From Thermoleophilia bacterium (lineage in GTDB: Bacteria; Actinomycetota; Thermoleophilia; Miltoncostaeales; Miltoncostaeaceae): a stretch of DNA of 59,922 bases. Of the stretch, positions 8,904 to 14,583 are shown piece by piece. The position numbers were made by a program, and so were the translations under genes. The stretch lies in assembly GCA_020848615.1 (NCBI GenBank), contig JADLHW010000160.1, positions 1 through 59,922 on the forward strand, read 5' to 3'. Position 1 is the stretch's first letter, and each line of letters opens with the position of its first letter. A model generated the notes under the pieces. That model worked only from the letters and a program-made list of their open reading frames with translations, did no database searches and was not told the DNA's origin.

Positions 8904-9689
8904 TCAGTCGTCCTCCCCGGCGGGCCCCACCAGCGAGAAGTAGCCCCCCACGGGGTCGACGACCACCGCGATCCGGCCGAACGGCGTGTCGAAGGGCTCC
9001 ACCTCCACCGTGCCGCCCAGCTCCCGGACGTGCCCGACGGCGTCGTCGGTGTCGATGACCGAGAAGTAGCTCATCCAGTGCGGCGGCACGTCATCGGGCC
9101 ACAGCTCGTTCATCTGCAGCACGCCGGCGACCGGCCCGTCCGGACCGGTGAGCATGGTGTAGCCGCTGCCGCCCTCCAGGTCGTGGGCACCCACGCCCAG
9201 CAGCTGTGCGAAGAACACGGCGGCGGCGTCGCGGTCCCGGGTGGCGAGCTCGCTCCACGCCATGGCGCCGGGCTCGTCGCGCACGCGGGCGCCGATGTGG
9301 CTTCCGGCCTGCCACAGGGCCACGGGGGCGCCGGTGGGGTCGGCGATGAGCGCCATGCTGCCCACCGCGGGCACGTCGTAGACCGGCACGAGCAGCCCGC
9401 CGCCCAGGTCCTCCACCCGTGCCGCCGCCGCCCGCACGTCCGGCACGTTGAGGTACACCAGCCACGCGGGGGGCTCCCCCGCCGCCCGCCGCTGCTCCGG
9501 CATGGCGAACACCGCGCACACCTCGCGGCCGTCGAGGGTCATGGTGTTGTAGGTGCGGTCGCTGCCCGGCACCGGGTTCGCGGTCCAGCCGAACAGGTCC
9601 GTGTAGAAGCGCGTGGCCGCGTCCAGGTCGGGCGTCGCCATGTCCGCCCAGCACGGGGCGCCGGTGGCGTAGCTCGTGATCTCTGGCAT
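8904..9689 (-). CDS. Tandem VOC (glyoxalase-fold) domain protein
   Basis: 261 residues with two vicinal-oxygen-chelate modules (about 5-125 and 135-255). Each begins with a membrane-free beta strand pattern (PCWADMATPDLDAATRFY; MAWSELATRDRDAAAVFF). The architecture resembles mycobacterial CFP30B-like proteins. A GGAGGTGA ribosome-binding site lies 4 nt before the ATG. Whether it is an enzyme or a binding protein is unclear. Confidence 0.88.
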   Translation of the reverse strand: MPEITSYATGAPCWADMATPDLDAATRFYTDLFGWTANPVPGSDRTYNTMTLDGREVCAVFAMPEQRRAAGEPPAWLVYLNVPDVRAAAARVEDLGGGLLVPVYDVPAVGSMALIADPTGAPVALWQAGSHIGARVRDEPGAMAWSELATRDRDAAAVFFAQLLGVGAHDLEGGSGYTMLTGPDGPVAGVLQMNELWPDDVPPHWMSYFSVIDTDDAVGHVRELGGTVEVEPFDTPFGRIAVVVDPVGGYFSLVGPAGEDD

Positions 9690-9741
9690 CCGTCACCTCC
9701 GGGGCGGCTGAACGACCCGGCGAGCGTACCCGCCGGATGGG

Positions 9742-9747
9742 TACGGT
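9742..9747 (+). promoter_or_regulatory. -10 hexamer implying a leaderless start
   Basis: TACGGT (TANNNT) ends 7 nt before the ATG at 9755, so the transcript would begin at or within a base of the start codon. The surrounding GTACCC/GGGTAC inverted repeat (about 9726-9746) overlaps it. Confidence 0.35.
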
Positions 9748-9754
9748 GCCGTGC

Positions 9755-10234
9755 ATGGACAACGGATGGACATTGGTGCGGTGGCTCCACCTCGGCGGGG
9801 TCTCGGTGTGGCTCGGGGGGATGATCTTCCTGGGCGCGGTGGTGATCCCGGTGGTGCGCGCCCACGGCGGCCTGCAGGCCTCCCGGGCGCTGGTGACCGC
9901 GGTCGCCCGGCGGTTCGGGATCATCGGCGGCGCGGCCTATCTGCTCATTCTGGTCACGGGCTTCGGCCTGCTGGACCACCGGGGCATCAGCCCCTCGGAG
10001 CTGCCGGACAGCGAGTACGGCCGCCGGGTGCTCATCAAGCTCATCCTGCTGCTGCTGGTGGGCGTCGTGGTGCTCGCGCACTCGTGGATCCAGGGCCCGC
10101 GCCTGCGCCGCGCCGAGGCGGCCGCCGACGACGCGGCCACCCGGAGGTGGAAGATGGTGGGCGGGCTCATGGACGGCTTCATGCTGCTCGCCACGCTCGC
10201 GACGCTCTGGCTCGCGGCGTCCCTGGTGGGTTAG
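9755..10234 (+). CDS. Four-helix membrane protein (CopD/DUF4149-like)
   Basis: 159 residues from ATG 9755, with hydrophobic segments near residues 10-32, 47-66, 88-107 and 131-152. The HLGGVSVWLGGM pattern in helix 1 resembles CopD-like and DUF4149 membrane proteins. An upstream ATG at 9737 is possible, but the hexamer TACGGT argues for 9755. It converges on a cupredoxin-like gene with a 4-nt overlap of the two stop codons, so a link to copper is tempting but unproven. Confidence 0.7.
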   Translation: MDNGWTLVRWLHLGGVSVWLGGMIFLGAVVIPVVRAHGGLQASRALVTAVARRFGIIGGAAYLLILVTGFGLLDHRGISPSELPDSEYGRRVLIKLILLLLVGVVVLAHSWIQGPRLRRAEAAADDAATRRWKMVGGLMDGFMLLATLATLWLAASLVG

Positions 10235-10692
10235 CGCCGCCCCGCCGCGGCCCGCCGCCTGCGCTCCAACGACGCCGCCGGCTGGGCGCGCGCCTCGATG
10301 ACGGCCGTCATCCCGAACCGCTCGTGGGACAGCGCCGGCCCCTCGAAGAGCGAGCACCAGATGCGGTGCCGGCCGGGCGCCAGGGTGGCCACCAGCTCCC
10401 CGGAGGACCGGGGCGCGAGCGCCACGGTGCGCCGGACGCCGGAGGCGTCGACGATGGCGAGGTCGTGGTCGTCCATCCCGCGGTTGTAGACCTGGATGCG
10501 CACCTCGCCCGCCGCCACGACGCGCCGGGACGGCCGGACGCTCCACTCCGTCTCGTCCACCGCGAGCTGCGTGGGCAGCGCCACCGGGGGCGGCAGCGTC
10601 GTGCGGTGGATGCGGGGCGCCGCGACCGCCGACCCGGCGGCCGCCAGGGCCAGGCCCATCAGCGCGGCCGATGCCCGCCGGGCGCGCCTCAC
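10231..10692 (-). CDS. Secreted cupredoxin-like protein
   Basis: 153 residues with an N-terminal signal sequence (about 1-25, RRAR followed by an alanine-rich core and AVAAP). The single beta-sandwich domain keeps an H-C-H-M set that fits a type 1 copper site: His76 (DDHDL), Cys113 (IWCSL), His123 and Met128 (SHERFGM). The GTG start overlaps the DUF1501 stop by 4 nt (GTGA), so it is the last gene of that operon. Copper binding is inferred from ligand spacing. Confidence 0.72.
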   Translation of the reverse strand: MRRARRASAALMGLALAAAGSAVAAPRIHRTTLPPPVALPTQLAVDETEWSVRPSRRVVAAGEVRIQVYNRGMDDHDLAIVDASGVRRTVALAPRSSGELVATLAPGRHRIWCSLFEGPALSHERFGMTAVIEARAQPAASLERRRRAAAGRR

Positions 10693-12179
10693 GCCAGCAG
10701 CGTCGCGGAGAGCCCGGGGACCGGCCCGCCGGGCAGGATGCGGCCGGGATCACCCCCGAGCCACTCCGCGATGACGGACTGGTAGATGCTGCGGAAGTCG
10801 GTCGTCACCTGGAGGTTGCCGCGCCGGTCGGGGCTCGCGAGCCCCGGGTGCTCGGACCGGAGGCCGCCGCGCACCGACGACCCCATCAGCAGCACCGGGG
10901 TCGCGGCCCCGTGATCGGTGCCGGACTGGTTCTCGGCGATCCGGCGGCCGAACTCGGAGAACACCAGGGTGAGGACGTTCTGCTCGATGCCGCGCGCGGC
11001 CAGGTCGTCCCGGAACGCCCCGAGCGCCTGCGAGAGCACGCGCAGCTGCGGGTCGAGGGCCGCCCGCTGGTTGCCGTGCGTGTCGAAGGATCCCCAGTCG
11101 ATGGTGACGACGCGCACCCCGACGCCCGACCCCAGCAGGGTCGCGGCGGTCCGCAGCCGCGTCGACAGGGTGCTGTTGGGATAGCCGGGCGCCGCGGCGC
11201 CGCCGCCGAGGCTGCTGACCTTGCGGGCGACGTCGACGCTCTGCGCGTAGGCCGTCCGGGACCGGCCGAGCCCGGCGTTGCCCTCCCCGGCCGGCGCGGC
11301 CGACAGGGCGCCGATCTCGTCGACGGGCCGCACCTGGGCGGCCGACGACCGTTCGATCGCGAACTGGCCGCCGGTGAGGCCCGCGACCGCGGCGACCGGC
11401 GCCTTCGCGGTCACGATCTGCTTCGACACCGAGTTGCCGATGCTCACGGCCTGCAGCGGGTTGTCCATGGAGCCGTGGGCGTCGAGCCAGCGCCCGAGCC
11501 ACCCGGTGGCGAGCTTGCGCAGGTCGCCGGAGAACCAGTACTCGCGGCTGTCGAAGTGCGAGAGGTTCGGCGGGTTGTAGTCCACGGCGGGGAACAGCGC
11601 GAGGTTCGCGCCGGCGCCGCCCAGGCCGTCGCCCCACAGGGTGTCGAGGCCCACGGTGGCGCCGTTGTTCGCCGTGCCCGACACCGCCGGGTTGGCCCAG
11701 GCGAGCGCGCCCCCCGTGCCGGGGATCGGCGTCGACCCCGTGCGGTCCGCCGTGCTGGCGCCCTGCAGGCGGTGCAGCAGCGGGCGCTTGGCCTGGTAGA
11801 TCGCGTAGTCGGCGGCGCCCACCGGGACGACGGCGTCGAGCCCGTCGAGCCCGCCGTTCAGGAAGATCACCACGAGCTGCGTCGGACCCGTGGCCCCCTC
11901 CGCGACCCCGGCCTCGAACGCCCGCGTCCAGTCGATGCGGGTCGCGGCGTAGACGGACGCCAGGCCGACGATCCCGTTGCGCAGGAACGCGCGCCGCGTG
12001 TGGCGTGCGGTGCGCGGCACCCCGTCCGGGAACCCGAGGAGCGCGTCGGCCGGGATCGGCATGTGGTCCACCGGGCGCAGGTGCTCCGCGGCGCTGTCCG
12101 ACCGGGCGCAGTCCGCGCACCGCACGGCCGCGACGTCCGCGGGGTCCTGGCCGGGCGCGCGGGAGGGATCGACGTCCAT
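10689..12179 (-). CDS. DUF1501 family Tat-exported protein
   Basis: 496 residues. A twin-arginine signal lies near residues 61-80 (TRRAFLRNGIVGLAS), preceded by an unusually long N-terminal region with a CADC pair at 21-24. The body matches DUF1501, an uncharacterised group related to the alkaline-phosphatase/sulfatase fold (VVIFLNGGLDGLDAVVP; FSEFGRR; TDHGAATPVLLMG). DUF1501 and DUF1800 genes are paired in many bacteria. The ATG shares a base with the DUF1800 stop (TGATG). Confidence 0.88.
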   Translation of the reverse strand: MDVDPSRAPGQDPADVAAVRCADCARSDSAAEHLRPVDHMPIPADALLGFPDGVPRTARHTRRAFLRNGIVGLASVYAATRIDWTRAFEAGVAEGATGPTQLVVIFLNGGLDGLDAVVPVGAADYAIYQAKRPLLHRLQGASTADRTGSTPIPGTGGALAWANPAVSGTANNGATVGLDTLWGDGLGGAGANLALFPAVDYNPPNLSHFDSREYWFSGDLRKLATGWLGRWLDAHGSMDNPLQAVSIGNSVSKQIVTAKAPVAAVAGLTGGQFAIERSSAAQVRPVDEIGALSAAPAGEGNAGLGRSRTAYAQSVDVARKVSSLGGGAAAPGYPNSTLSTRLRTAATLLGSGVGVRVVTIDWGSFDTHGNQRAALDPQLRVLSQALGAFRDDLAARGIEQNVLTLVFSEFGRRIAENQSGTDHGAATPVLLMGSSVRGGLRSEHPGLASPDRRGNLQVTTDFRSIYQSVIAEWLGGDPGRILPGGPVPGLSATLLA

Positions 12180-13603
12180 CACATCACCTGACCGTCGGGG
12201 CCGCCGAGCATGAACGCGCGCAGCGCCCGCTGGCGCACCTCCCGGTCCTGGGAGCGCGCCACGGGGGCACGGCCCGCGAACCCCAGCAGGTACGCACGGG
12301 TCGCCGGGGCCAGCCAGGGACGCCCGACGGCGCCGTGCGCGCGCTTGAAGGCGGCGTCCGGCGTCTCGCCGGCGATGTCCTCGGGCGCCTTCGCGGGCAG
12401 GCTCACGAGGCGCTGGGCGAGGGCGAAGCGCGACACGGAGGTGTTGGTGTTGAGCCAGGTGAGGCCCCCCTCCCATCCCGCGACCGTGGGAGGGAAGTAC
12501 GGCAGCTGCCCCATGTCGCGCAGCGCCGTGTACACGCGGTCGTCGGTGATCGACAGCCCCAGCTGGCGCAGCAGGCCGGCGGCGTAGACCACCGGCGGCT
12601 TCACCTTGTTGGGCTCCTTGGGGGACTCGAACAGCAGCGGGTGGGTGAGGATCCGCTCCAGCAGGGGCCGGATGCGGCGCCCCCGCAGGTAGGTCGCGGT
12701 GAGCTGGGCCATCGTCGCCGCGTCCGGCGGCGTCTCGATGAACTCGTGCCACAGCTTGCGCACCAGGAAGGGCGCGTGGGACCGGTGCTCCAGGACGACG
12801 GCGACGGCGTCGCGGTGCCCGAAGTTCCCGCCGCGTCCCAGGAAGGTCTTGGTGCCGTCCACCCAGCGGGTCCGCGTGAAGTAGCCGAACGCGGCGTCCG
12901 GGTTGTCGTCGTTCACCTGCCACCCGGTGAGCGCCTTCGCGAGCTCGCGGACGTCGTCCTCGGTGTAGTTGGGGGCCCCCGCCTCGTCGAGCACGCCGAG
13001 GCAGAACAGCTCCATCACCTCGCGGGCGTAGTTCTCGTTCACCAGCCGGCGGGTGCTGTCCTCACCGGTGAGGAACCGCAGCATCGCCGGGTCCTCGCCC
13101 ACCTCGTACACCAGGTCGGTGAACGTGGCCCCCGGGTTCGCCCCGAGGTCCGCGTATTTCCGGAACAGGCCGTTCTGCTTCGTCATGAGCTGCGGCGGGG
13201 AGACCTCGTCCCGCTGCGTGGCGAAGTGACGGTGCCAGAAGAAGGTCATGCGCTCGACCAGCGGGTTCGCGGACCGCGCCATGCGGTCGACCCAGGTGAG
13301 CACCAGGTCCGTGTCGGACGCGTGGGGCTGCAGCGGGGTCCCGTCGGCGCGCACCGCCGCGGTCCCGTCCAGGCGCTGGGGGGTGCTGAGGAGCCAGTCG
13401 ACCAGGCGCCCGGCGCTCTTGCCGGTCCACGCCGCCCGGTCGGCCTCGGTGGGGCCGAAGCCGGCGCGCCAGAACACGCGGTCCACCATGGCCTCGGTCA
13501 TGCGGCGCTGGGCGCCGCCGGCGGCAGGCAGCCGCAGCCTGCGTCGCCGGCCCCGCTGGGGCCCGGTCGCGGCGCGGCGCCGCGCGGCCTCGCGGGCGGT
13601 CAC
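12179..13603 (-). CDS. DUF1800 family protein
   Basis: 474 residues from GTG 13603, which overlaps the stop of the GH26-like gene (GTGA). DUF1800 hallmarks are clear: the RVFWRAGFGPTEADR opening, RMTFFWHRHFAT, NENYAREVMELFCLG and PPVVYAAGLLRQLG. The first 35 residues are arginine-rich with no clear signal peptide. The family is usually encoded with DUF1501; its activity is unknown. The C-terminus ends directly at the DUF1501 start, implying fixed stoichiometry. Confidence 0.88.
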   Translation of the reverse strand: MTAREAARRRAATGPQRGRRRRLRLPAAGGAQRRMTEAMVDRVFWRAGFGPTEADRAAWTGKSAGRLVDWLLSTPQRLDGTAAVRADGTPLQPHASDTDLVLTWVDRMARSANPLVERMTFFWHRHFATQRDEVSPPQLMTKQNGLFRKYADLGANPGATFTDLVYEVGEDPAMLRFLTGEDSTRRLVNENYAREVMELFCLGVLDEAGAPNYTEDDVRELAKALTGWQVNDDNPDAAFGYFTRTRWVDGTKTFLGRGGNFGHRDAVAVVLEHRSHAPFLVRKLWHEFIETPPDAATMAQLTATYLRGRRIRPLLERILTHPLLFESPKEPNKVKPPVVYAAGLLRQLGLSITDDRVYTALRDMGQLPYFPPTVAGWEGGLTWLNTNTSVSRFALAQRLVSLPAKAPEDIAGETPDAAFKRAHGAVGRPWLAPATRAYLLGFAGRAPVARSQDREVRQRALRAFMLGGPDGQVM

Positions 13604-14583
13604 CGGACGGCCTTGGTGAACGCGCGGAACGCCCTGGCCGAGGCCGGCACGCCGCGCAGCCGGAAGTCGCCGTTCGGCTCCTTGACGTCGGACCAGACCA
13701 GCCCCTGCAGGGCCGGGAAGGCCGAGGGCAGCGTCGCCAGCTCCGCGATCCAGCCGGCCTTCGCGCCGCCGAGGCCCGTCGACCCGGTCTCCGCGATCCA
13801 GAACGGCCGCGTGGGCGCGAGCGCCTGGGTCTCGCGGTAGACGTCGGCGAAGAGGGACCTGGGGTCCGTCCAGGCCAGGCCGCCGCGGTCGCCGAAGTTG
13901 TAGGCGCTGGTCCCGACGAGATCGACCTTCGCGACGCCCGGGAAGTACGCGGCGTAGGCATTCGCCGGGGTGTCGGGGACGGATCGCGCGTAGGGCGCCC
14001 ACATGAGCTTCACCCGGTTGCCGGCGGCCCCGCGGACGACGCGGTGCACGCGGTTCCACGCCCGCCGGTACGCGGCCGCGCTGTTCCCGGTCCTCGCCCC
14101 GGACCAGTGGTACCAGGTGGTGTTCATCTCGGGCATCGGGCGGAGGATGGGGGCCGGGCGCAGGCCGCGCACCTGACGGGCGAGGGCGCGCAGCGAGGCG
14201 TCGTACGCCCCGCGGTTCACGCCCTTCAGCCCGGTCCGGGCCGTCGGCCTGCCCCCGGTCGCCCCGGAGTCGGGCATCCACCCGATGAGCAGCCGCATCC
14301 TGCGGCGCTTTGCCAGTGCGACCACGTCCCTGTCCACCAGCTGCCCGCCCGTCACGTACGTGGAGAGCACCCGGGGTGCTCCCGCCGCGCGGATCAGGGG
14401 GGCGAGCTGGGTGACCGGGTCGTCCTGGTACACGCCCACCTGCACCGCCGCCGCCGCTGCCCCGGGACCGGCGAGGACCGCCAGGACCGGGAGGGAGACG
14501 GCGATGAGGAGACGACGGCGACATCCGGTCGTTTCGTCGCCCCCTTCCGCCGGCCGGGCACGTGACCGGAGGACATGGGGCAT
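13600..14583 (-). CDS. Secreted glycoside hydrolase, GH26-like
   Basis: 327 residues. A hydrophobic segment at about 24-47 (LLIAVSLPVLAVLAGPGAAAAA) is a signal peptide. The (beta/alpha)8 fold has a probable acid/base Glu152 in RPMPEMNTTWYHW and a nucleophile Glu265 in FWIAETGS, both in the GH26 beta-mannanase pattern. Family members cleave beta-1,4-mannan or related glucans. First gene of the four-gene operon with DUF1800, DUF1501 and the cupredoxin. Substrate is inferred only. Confidence 0.8.
   Translation of the reverse strand: MPHVLRSRARPAEGGDETTGCRRRLLIAVSLPVLAVLAGPGAAAAAVQVGVYQDDPVTQLAPLIRAAGAPRVLSTYVTGGQLVDRDVVALAKRRRMRLLIGWMPDSGATGGRPTARTGLKGVNRGAYDASLRALARQVRGLRPAPILRPMPEMNTTWYHWSGARTGNSAAAYRRAWNRVHRVVRGAAGNRVKLMWAPYARSVPDTPANAYAAYFPGVAKVDLVGTSAYNFGDRGGLAWTDPRSLFADVYRETQALAPTRPFWIAETGSTGLGGAKAGWIAELATLPSAFPALQGLVWSDVKEPNGDFRLRGVPASARAFRAFTKAVR

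Follow-up and report, generated by a model that had tools for sequence, protein, structure and literature searches.

On the minus strand of the window, i.e. the whole analysed stretch of 59,922 nucleotides from a Thermoleophilia contig (JADLHW010000160.1), four genes run from 14583 to 10231 in the order GH26-like hydrolase, DUF1800, DUF1501 and cupredoxin, joined by start/stop overlaps. The stop of the GH26 gene and the start of DUF1800 share GTGA (13600..13603), the stop of DUF1800 and the start of DUF1501 share TGATG (12177..12181), and DUF1501 and the cupredoxin again share GTGA (10689..10692), all on the minus strand and read directly from the sequence. Thus, all four open reading frames and all three junctions of the earlier note were found. 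The overlaps themselves were kept in relatives. The DUF1800 start codon overlapped the GH26 stop in seven of seven loci, window included. TGATG at the DUF1800–DUF1501 junction and GTGA or ATGA at the DUF1501–cupredoxin junction were each kept in 8 of 9 loci of clade B, a branch with SH-aLRT 100 in a quick tree search. Because of this the four-gene adjacency is not due to chance. A search of other genomes returned the same order, overlaps included, from several further genera and one further family. Therefore, the objection that it might be confined to this genome does not hold. The translationally coupled GH26-DUF1800-DUF1501-cupredoxin order is conserved within one clade.

A convergent gene on the plus strand (9737..10234) encodes a CopD/DUF4149-like membrane protein (CopD, PF05425, E=2.4e-11). 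The gene is present as the earlier note had it, yet it is a neighbor and not part of the association: only a genome of the same genus (L042) carried it at this place, and it was missing from the other four-gene loci. As a fifth operon member it was rejected.

The first gene (13600..14583, minus strand) codes for a GH26-like hydrolase with a Sec-type N terminus. It matched Glyco_hydro_26 (PF02156) with E=3.4e-5 and 23.8 bits at a cut-off of 20.2. The nearest solved relative by sequence was the GH26 endoglucanase H (PDB 2bv9 and relatives, E=8.5e-14). The pair of catalytic glutamates (in RPMPEMN and WIAETGS; E112 and E225 of the alignment) was invariant in seven sequences and aligned with that of the solved enzyme. 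However, the residue preceding the acid/base glutamate is proline in place of histidine, RPMPE in 7/7 sequences versus LRPLHE in 2bv9, and for this reason we label the protein GH26-like and not a mannanase. The description as mannanase-like was accordingly dropped; mannanase identity is unsupported. The enzyme forms a separate subfamily tied to DUF1800-DUF1501. In 300 genomes of the class, the eight best intact copies (at least 440 bits) and one frame-broken copy all stood beside DUF1800, and the next score was 185 bits. GH26 joins DUF1800-DUF1501-cupredoxin in one clade only.

DUF1800 (12179..13603, minus strand, GTG start) was identified by PF08811 (E=2.3e-85, 287.8 bits, cut-off 26.1, profile positions 2-415 of 419). 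Its AlphaFold2 model had a pLDDT of 97, and a Foldseek search with the model returned no known fold at E<=0.001. A phycobilisome linker fold was considered and discarded, as a Z of 5.7 over about 122 residues is too low to trust. The protein contains a single cysteine and no CxxCH motif.

DUF1501 (10689..12179, minus strand) matched PF07394 with E=6.8e-26 (91.8 bits, cut-off 27). Its AlphaFold2 model (pLDDT 85) resembled NPP/ENPP (Z 18.3 over 238 residues), PafA (Z 17.0 over 261 residues) and choline sulfatase (Z 16.0 over 235 residues). According to the model, DUF1501 has an alkaline phosphatase superfamily fold of the NPP type. A profile comparison of DUF1501 with the Phosphodiest proteins of relatives gave no signal. 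D96, S191, H192, D350, H352, D406 and H407 were invariant and may belong to a site with the bimetal ligands and Ser/Thr nucleophile of that superfamily. Such a fold favors hydrolysis and speaks against a redox role.

The fourth gene (10231..10692, minus strand) encodes a type-1 copper protein with a Sec-type signal. A Pfam scan of the protein gave no match over the cut-off; it was recognized by its ligand residues and by profile matches to the PDB. The predicted copper ligands H76, C113, H123 and M128 were all present, as claimed before, and they were nearly invariant in relatives: across 63 homologues both histidines and the methionine were invariant and the cysteine was kept in at least 90%, with a serine at the single exception (L108). 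The profile of these 63 proteins matched the blue copper protein 6kol (E=1.7e-7), auracyanin B (2.2e-6) and plastocyanins. Most members in the class share the H...C-x4-H-x4-M pattern of auracyanin/plastocyanin-type cupredoxins, whereas the window copy and most GH26-linked relatives have a longer loop, C-x9-H-x4-M in the window. The operon partners also differ from those of the auracyanin/plastocyanin type.

The cupredoxin is not limited to the clade with GH26. Among the 78 Thermoleophilia loci with complete flanks, a blue copper protein adjoined the DUF1800-DUF1501 pair in 61 (45 downstream, 16 upstream), usually in the same orientation and less than 100 bp away; in 17 no cupredoxin adjoined. 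A free search for cupredoxins in 120 genomes of the class gave nearly all best matches (above about 94 bits) next to a DUF1501 gene or a contig edge. The divergence of the cupredoxins paralleled that of the pair (distance correlation 0.72, to which shared ancestry contributes). In one family (f5) the pair had no adjoining cupredoxin and CopC-CopD stood there instead, in one genome together with DUF1775. Elsewhere in the phylum none of 39 sampled pairs had a cupredoxin beside it, nor did any of 74 loci in other phyla, where genomes were scanned with a DUF1800 alignment as query. A Pfam scan of same-strand open reading frames flanking the pair in those phyla showed no recurring partner, neither an electron carrier nor a CAZyme; MoeA was most frequent, in 3/72. 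The association of cupredoxin and pair is nearly certain: a type-1 copper protein is the class-wide third partner of DUF1800-DUF1501. This and the CopC-CopD genes of family f5 strengthened the copper link that the earlier note had proposed for the operon.

How do the products reach the cell exterior? The GH26 enzyme and the cupredoxin have Sec-type signals, and DUF1501 carries the Tat motif TRRAFLRNG, in which R46 was invariant and R47 kept in at least 90% of 62 homologues. The genome of the window encodes TatC. At the N terminus of DUF1800 a hydrophobic segment was absent, and a hydrophobicity screen, as distinct from SignalP or another trained predictor, found no signal in 80/81 DUF1800 proteins of the class, 30/31 of the phylum and 54/63 of other phyla. 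Thus, only one partner of the pair bears a signal. Because DUF1800 is without a signal peptide, the four products are not all independently exported; the claim of four secreted or exported products would be right only with DUF1800 carried by a partner. Such hitchhiking via Tat has a precedent in the heterotrimer PaoABC (PMC4273604). In PaoABC and hydrogenase-2, as in DUF1800-DUF1501, one subunit has the Tat signal, the partner is signal-less and both come from one operon (PMC4273604). The difference is that a DUF1800-DUF1501 complex is only predicted.

The pair as such is not new. It was rightly called known and unexplained, being widespread in bacteria and noted with chitin synthases: bacterial chitin synthase operons contain DUF1800/DUF1501 (PMC5122149). 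The two families, their order and the Tat motif of DUF1501 are alike in the window (PF08811-PF07394; PMC5122149), and the window locus showed no chitin synthase. Biochemical data on any DUF1800 or DUF1501 protein were not found in the papers searched, and none of those papers mentions both cupredoxin and Thermoleophilia. In the operon the DUF1800-DUF1501 pair is enlarged by further genes, the cupredoxin as third member across much of Thermoleophilia and GH26 as fourth in one clade. We infer a copper-linked chemistry of the operon, including an extracellular oxidation or polysaccharide function.

Taken as a whole, the data may best be explained by a Tat-carried DUF1800-DUF1501 complex which is served by the cupredoxin and acts on polysaccharide, a reading we hold tentatively and at somewhat less than even chances. 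The two proteins of the pair would fold as a complex before leaving the cytoplasm, and Tat would then take DUF1800 across the membrane in folded form, carried by DUF1501. The cupredoxin, Sec-exported in the window operon, would dock on the complex at the cell surface and either swap electrons with it or supply copper. The complex may then modify a beta-linked polysaccharide of the surface or the environment, probably of the β-glucan type, and the GH26 enzyme would cut the same polysaccharide. For a polysaccharide substrate speak the chitin synthase operons that contain the pair (PMC5122149) and the carbohydrate-binding modules of PSCyt proteins (PMC5615132). The loci of the class that lack an adjoining cupredoxin, the pair outside the class, which does without one, and its neighbors in other phyla, among which no electron carrier or CAZyme recurred, speak against this explanation. 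Further, the downstream cupredoxins need not bind the complex since they have Sec-type signals of their own.

Alternatively, the pair might be purely hydrolytic, DUF1501 as a phospho- or sulfo-esterase and DUF1800 as a scaffold or substrate binder, trimming polysaccharide together with GH26, while the cupredoxin is merely co-regulated and acts elsewhere, e.g. in respiration. The alkaline phosphatase superfamily fold with the conserved D96, S191, D350/H352 and D406/H407, which we infer to be catalytic, would fit, as would the GH26 gene in the same operon and the sulfatases reported near PSCyt genes in Verrucomicrobia (PMC5615132). Yet the cupredoxin linkage survives two gene orders, and its divergence tracks that of the pair, shared ancestry granted; we consider this alternative unlikely. 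A looser connection, in which a common signal (copper, oxygen or starvation) accounts for the shared operon and the products work in no single complex, draws on the fact that linkage by itself cannot tell co-regulation from complex formation. It appears less likely still, because overlaps conserved at every junction and a trio retained class-wide favor stoichiometric co-production. That the genes are mere chance neighbors in one genome has practically no probability left: no point in its support was found, and the order in several genera of two families and the class-wide cupredoxin exclude it.

Could the cupredoxin be a copper donor to DUF1501 or DUF1800, acting as a metallochaperone or buffer, with the complex as a copper-dependent metalloenzyme? 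CopC-CopD and DUF1775 beside the pair in family f5 belong to copper-handling and not to electron-transfer families. Moreover, sister cupredoxins in family f1 could load metal before Tat export because several of them have no signal peptide. However, the full H-C-H-M type-1 site with its invariant methionine is typical of electron carriers, and known copper chaperones have other sites. Donation of copper as the sole role is quite unlikely.

The DUF1800-DUF1501 pair is spread across much of the bacterial tree and seldom mentioned in the open-access papers searched. A blue copper partner conserved in one class and not found elsewhere in the sampled pairs is a lead to copper-linked chemistry outside the cell, and together with the signal-less DUF1800 it makes the 'unknown function' of the pair concretely testable. 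A parallel exists in planctomycetes. There, a DUF1501 gene was adjacent in 28 of 30 PSD1 loci, and 17 of 19 long PSD1 open reading frames contained CxxCH. Compared by how the systems work, PSCyt-PSD1 (DUF1549-DUF1553) places DUF1501 beside a protein with a one-electron cofactor motif, haem c there and blue copper here; the copper protein may play the role of the haem-c motifs. In contrast to PSCyt-PSD1, DUF1800 has no haem motif and the carrier is a separate small protein instead of a fused domain. The similarity of DUF1800 to PSD1 is partial and only suggestive: profiles matched over 56-80 columns with P from 7e-6 to 8e-5 (unrelated controls, 0.08-0.84). It is conceivable, if doubtful, that a single exported redox family comprises both DUF1800-DUF1501 and PSD1-DUF1501 as its branches, a Tat hitchhiker complex assembled in the cytoplasm with a one-electron carrier that can be exchanged from lineage to lineage: planctomycetes would use haem c and Thermoleophilia blue copper. 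A redox role, if true, would explain the many haem-bearing PSD1 genes beside planctomycete DUF1501 genes.

The window's minus strand carries, at 14583-10231, the four-gene operon that the earlier note had described, and genes, order, overlaps and copper ligands were as read there from the window sequence. A GH26-like hydrolase (14583-13600; Pfam Glyco_hydro_26, 3.4e-5) is followed by DUF1800 (13603-12179; Pfam, 2.3e-85), DUF1501 (12179-10689; Pfam, 6.8e-26) and a cupredoxin (10692-10231). All three junctions overlap, by GTGA, TGATG and GTGA, respectively. The small protein had no Pfam match above cut-off; it possesses the ligands H76, C113, H123 and M128, and the profile of 63 homologues matched PDB cupredoxin domains, including plastocyanin and auracyanin. 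The stop codons of the cupredoxin gene and of the convergent CopD-like gene share two bases (10231-10234). The label 'mannanase' was dropped. Endoglucanase H, which we take to be a lichenase, is the nearest solved relative of the hydrolase by sequence, with both catalytic Glu aligned. Pro, not His, precedes the acid/base Glu in 7/7 aligned sequences, and the enzyme is therefore named GH26-like only.

The four-gene order is not confined to this genome. It was identical at four loci of the window's family f1 (L039, L040, L041, L044), and another copy was present in family f3 (L123). A same-genus genome (L042) kept the order with the GH26 frame broken into two pieces; this split across two frames (9127-9967) is a pseudogene or an assembly error. 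At locus L043, GH26 and two tandem DUF1800-DUF1501 pairs run to the contig end, and a cupredoxin starts another contig of the same genome. The front of L046 is cut by a contig end, and GH26 and a DUF1800 fragment are adjacent on another contig of that genome (G014). Tandem duplication of the pair was seen at L037, L043, L100, L117 and L119. The GH26 stop/DUF1800 start overlap was kept in 7/7 loci, TGATG in 8/9, and the DUF1501/cupredoxin overlap was GTGA or ATGA in 8/9. A GH26-alignment search of 300 genomes of the class Thermoleophilia returned eight intact copies with at least 440 bits and the broken one with 287, all adjoining DUF1800; the best remaining score was 185. Every GH26-bearing locus is contained in a 14-row clade (SH-aLRT 100) of a DUF1800 tree built with a quick method. 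Among the 63 cupredoxin homologues both His ligands and the Met never vary, and the Cys is kept in at least 90%. Since order, overlaps and ligands are conserved, neither objection named in the earlier note holds, i.e. an order restricted to this genome or ligands lost in close relatives.

The DUF1800-DUF1501 pair was known before, unexplained, and the window's operon is a variant of it. DUF1800 was found in 102/300 class genomes. Counting only pairs flanked by 600 bp or more on each side, and cupredoxins on the same strand within 1.5 kb, a cupredoxin of this family lies beside 61/78 Thermoleophilia pairs (45 downstream, 16 upstream). Loci fetched from the phylum's other classes all had an intact pair (39/39) and none had such a cupredoxin, nor had any of 74 loci of other phyla. 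When 120 class genomes were searched freely with the cupredoxin profile, almost every top-scoring match adjoined DUF1501 or a contig edge; one clear orphan was on G117:C49. The orphan of that genome (L199, 6483-6914) lies, by eye, near formate-dehydrogenase-like genes, and the genome's pair has no cupredoxin. The association is real, conserved and wider than first seen; the chemistry proposed for it is putative.

The cupredoxins diverge in step with DUF1800 and DUF1501 (r = 0.72, partly due to shared ancestry; DUF1800-DUF1501, r = 0.95). The window's cupredoxin is 82-40% identical to most cupredoxins found in its DUF1800 clade and, at 36% identity, further from the sister-operon copy in its own genome. 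Because of this parallel divergence and because the closest cupredoxins are in the same clade, the operon is, judged by sequence, inherited as one unit. In family f5 the pair is without cupredoxin and CopC-CopD come next (L098, 8289-13201, plus DUF1775; L130, 352-6277). As these are copper families, they are a second line of support for a copper link. In one f10 genus (L072, L073, L074, L078, L079) the operon has a cyclophilin-type isomerase ahead of its upstream cupredoxin and an aldehyde dehydrogenase gene after its end.

In the Tat motif of DUF1501 R46 is invariant and R47 at least 90% conserved (62 proteins), and TatC is encoded in the window's genome. A start codon with a hydrophobic segment was absent from DUF1800 in 80/81 class, 30/31 rest-of-phylum and 54/63 other-phyla proteins, as judged by hydrophobicity and not with a trained signal-peptide predictor. 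The predicted DUF1501 signal and the apparently signal-less DUF1800 are the pattern of a Tat hitchhiker; likewise, one partner carries the signal in the documented precedent PaoABC, an E. coli heterotrimer (PMC4273604). The long region before the motif (12030-12179), with CADCARSD and (M/V)PIPADAL motifs shared by many relatives, is unusual for a Tat signal. The window's cupredoxin carries its own Sec-type signal. In f1 sister operons the cupredoxin gene is first (cupredoxin-DUF1800-DUF1501), and seven cupredoxins had no signal in the hydrophobicity screen (L028, 7664-7984 on G000:C30 of the window's genome; L030, L031, L033, L035, L036, L045). They retain all copper ligands; in L035 an in-frame stop is only 16 residues before the domain. 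Blue copper proteins seldom lack a signal, and its absence here suggests joint export with the Tat partner. If these proteins are exported, it would have to be alongside DUF1501 or along a route not yet recognised.

We favour a Tat-exported DUF1800-DUF1501 complex which, served by the cupredoxin, would act on beta-linked polysaccharide. The polysaccharide is hinted at by the GH26 partner, by chitin synthase operons containing DUF1800/DUF1501 (PMC5122149) and by the carbohydrate-binding modules of PSCyt proteins (PMC5615132); a redox role is hinted at by the cupredoxin partner and a planctomycete parallel, PSD1. Serious rivals are that the cupredoxin is a copper donor and that the pair is purely hydrolytic. 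For the DUF1501 model (pLDDT 85), Z was 18 against NPP/ENPP phosphodiesterases, 17 against the phosphatase PafA and 16 against choline sulfatase; this hydrolase fold counts against a redox mechanism. The invariant D96, S191, H192, D350, H352, D406 and H407 are candidate residues of the DUF1501 active site. The AlphaFold2 model of DUF1800 (mean pLDDT 97) had no Foldseek match at E<=0.001 in PDB; in a second look the top rows were phycobilisome linker domains (Z 5.7).

As for the parallel, a DUF1501 gene adjoins 28/30 examined planctomycete PSD1 loci. There PSD1 bears the haem c motif CxxCH (17/19 long ORFs), whereas most Thermoleophilia pairs adjoin a cupredoxin. Profile similarity between DUF1800 and PSD1 is weak: 56 columns aligned with P 6.8e-6, against 0.08 to 0.84 for unrelated controls. 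Planctomycete genomes G673, G674, G675 and G676 have 14 to 91 PSD1 matches each, and DUF1800 is also present.
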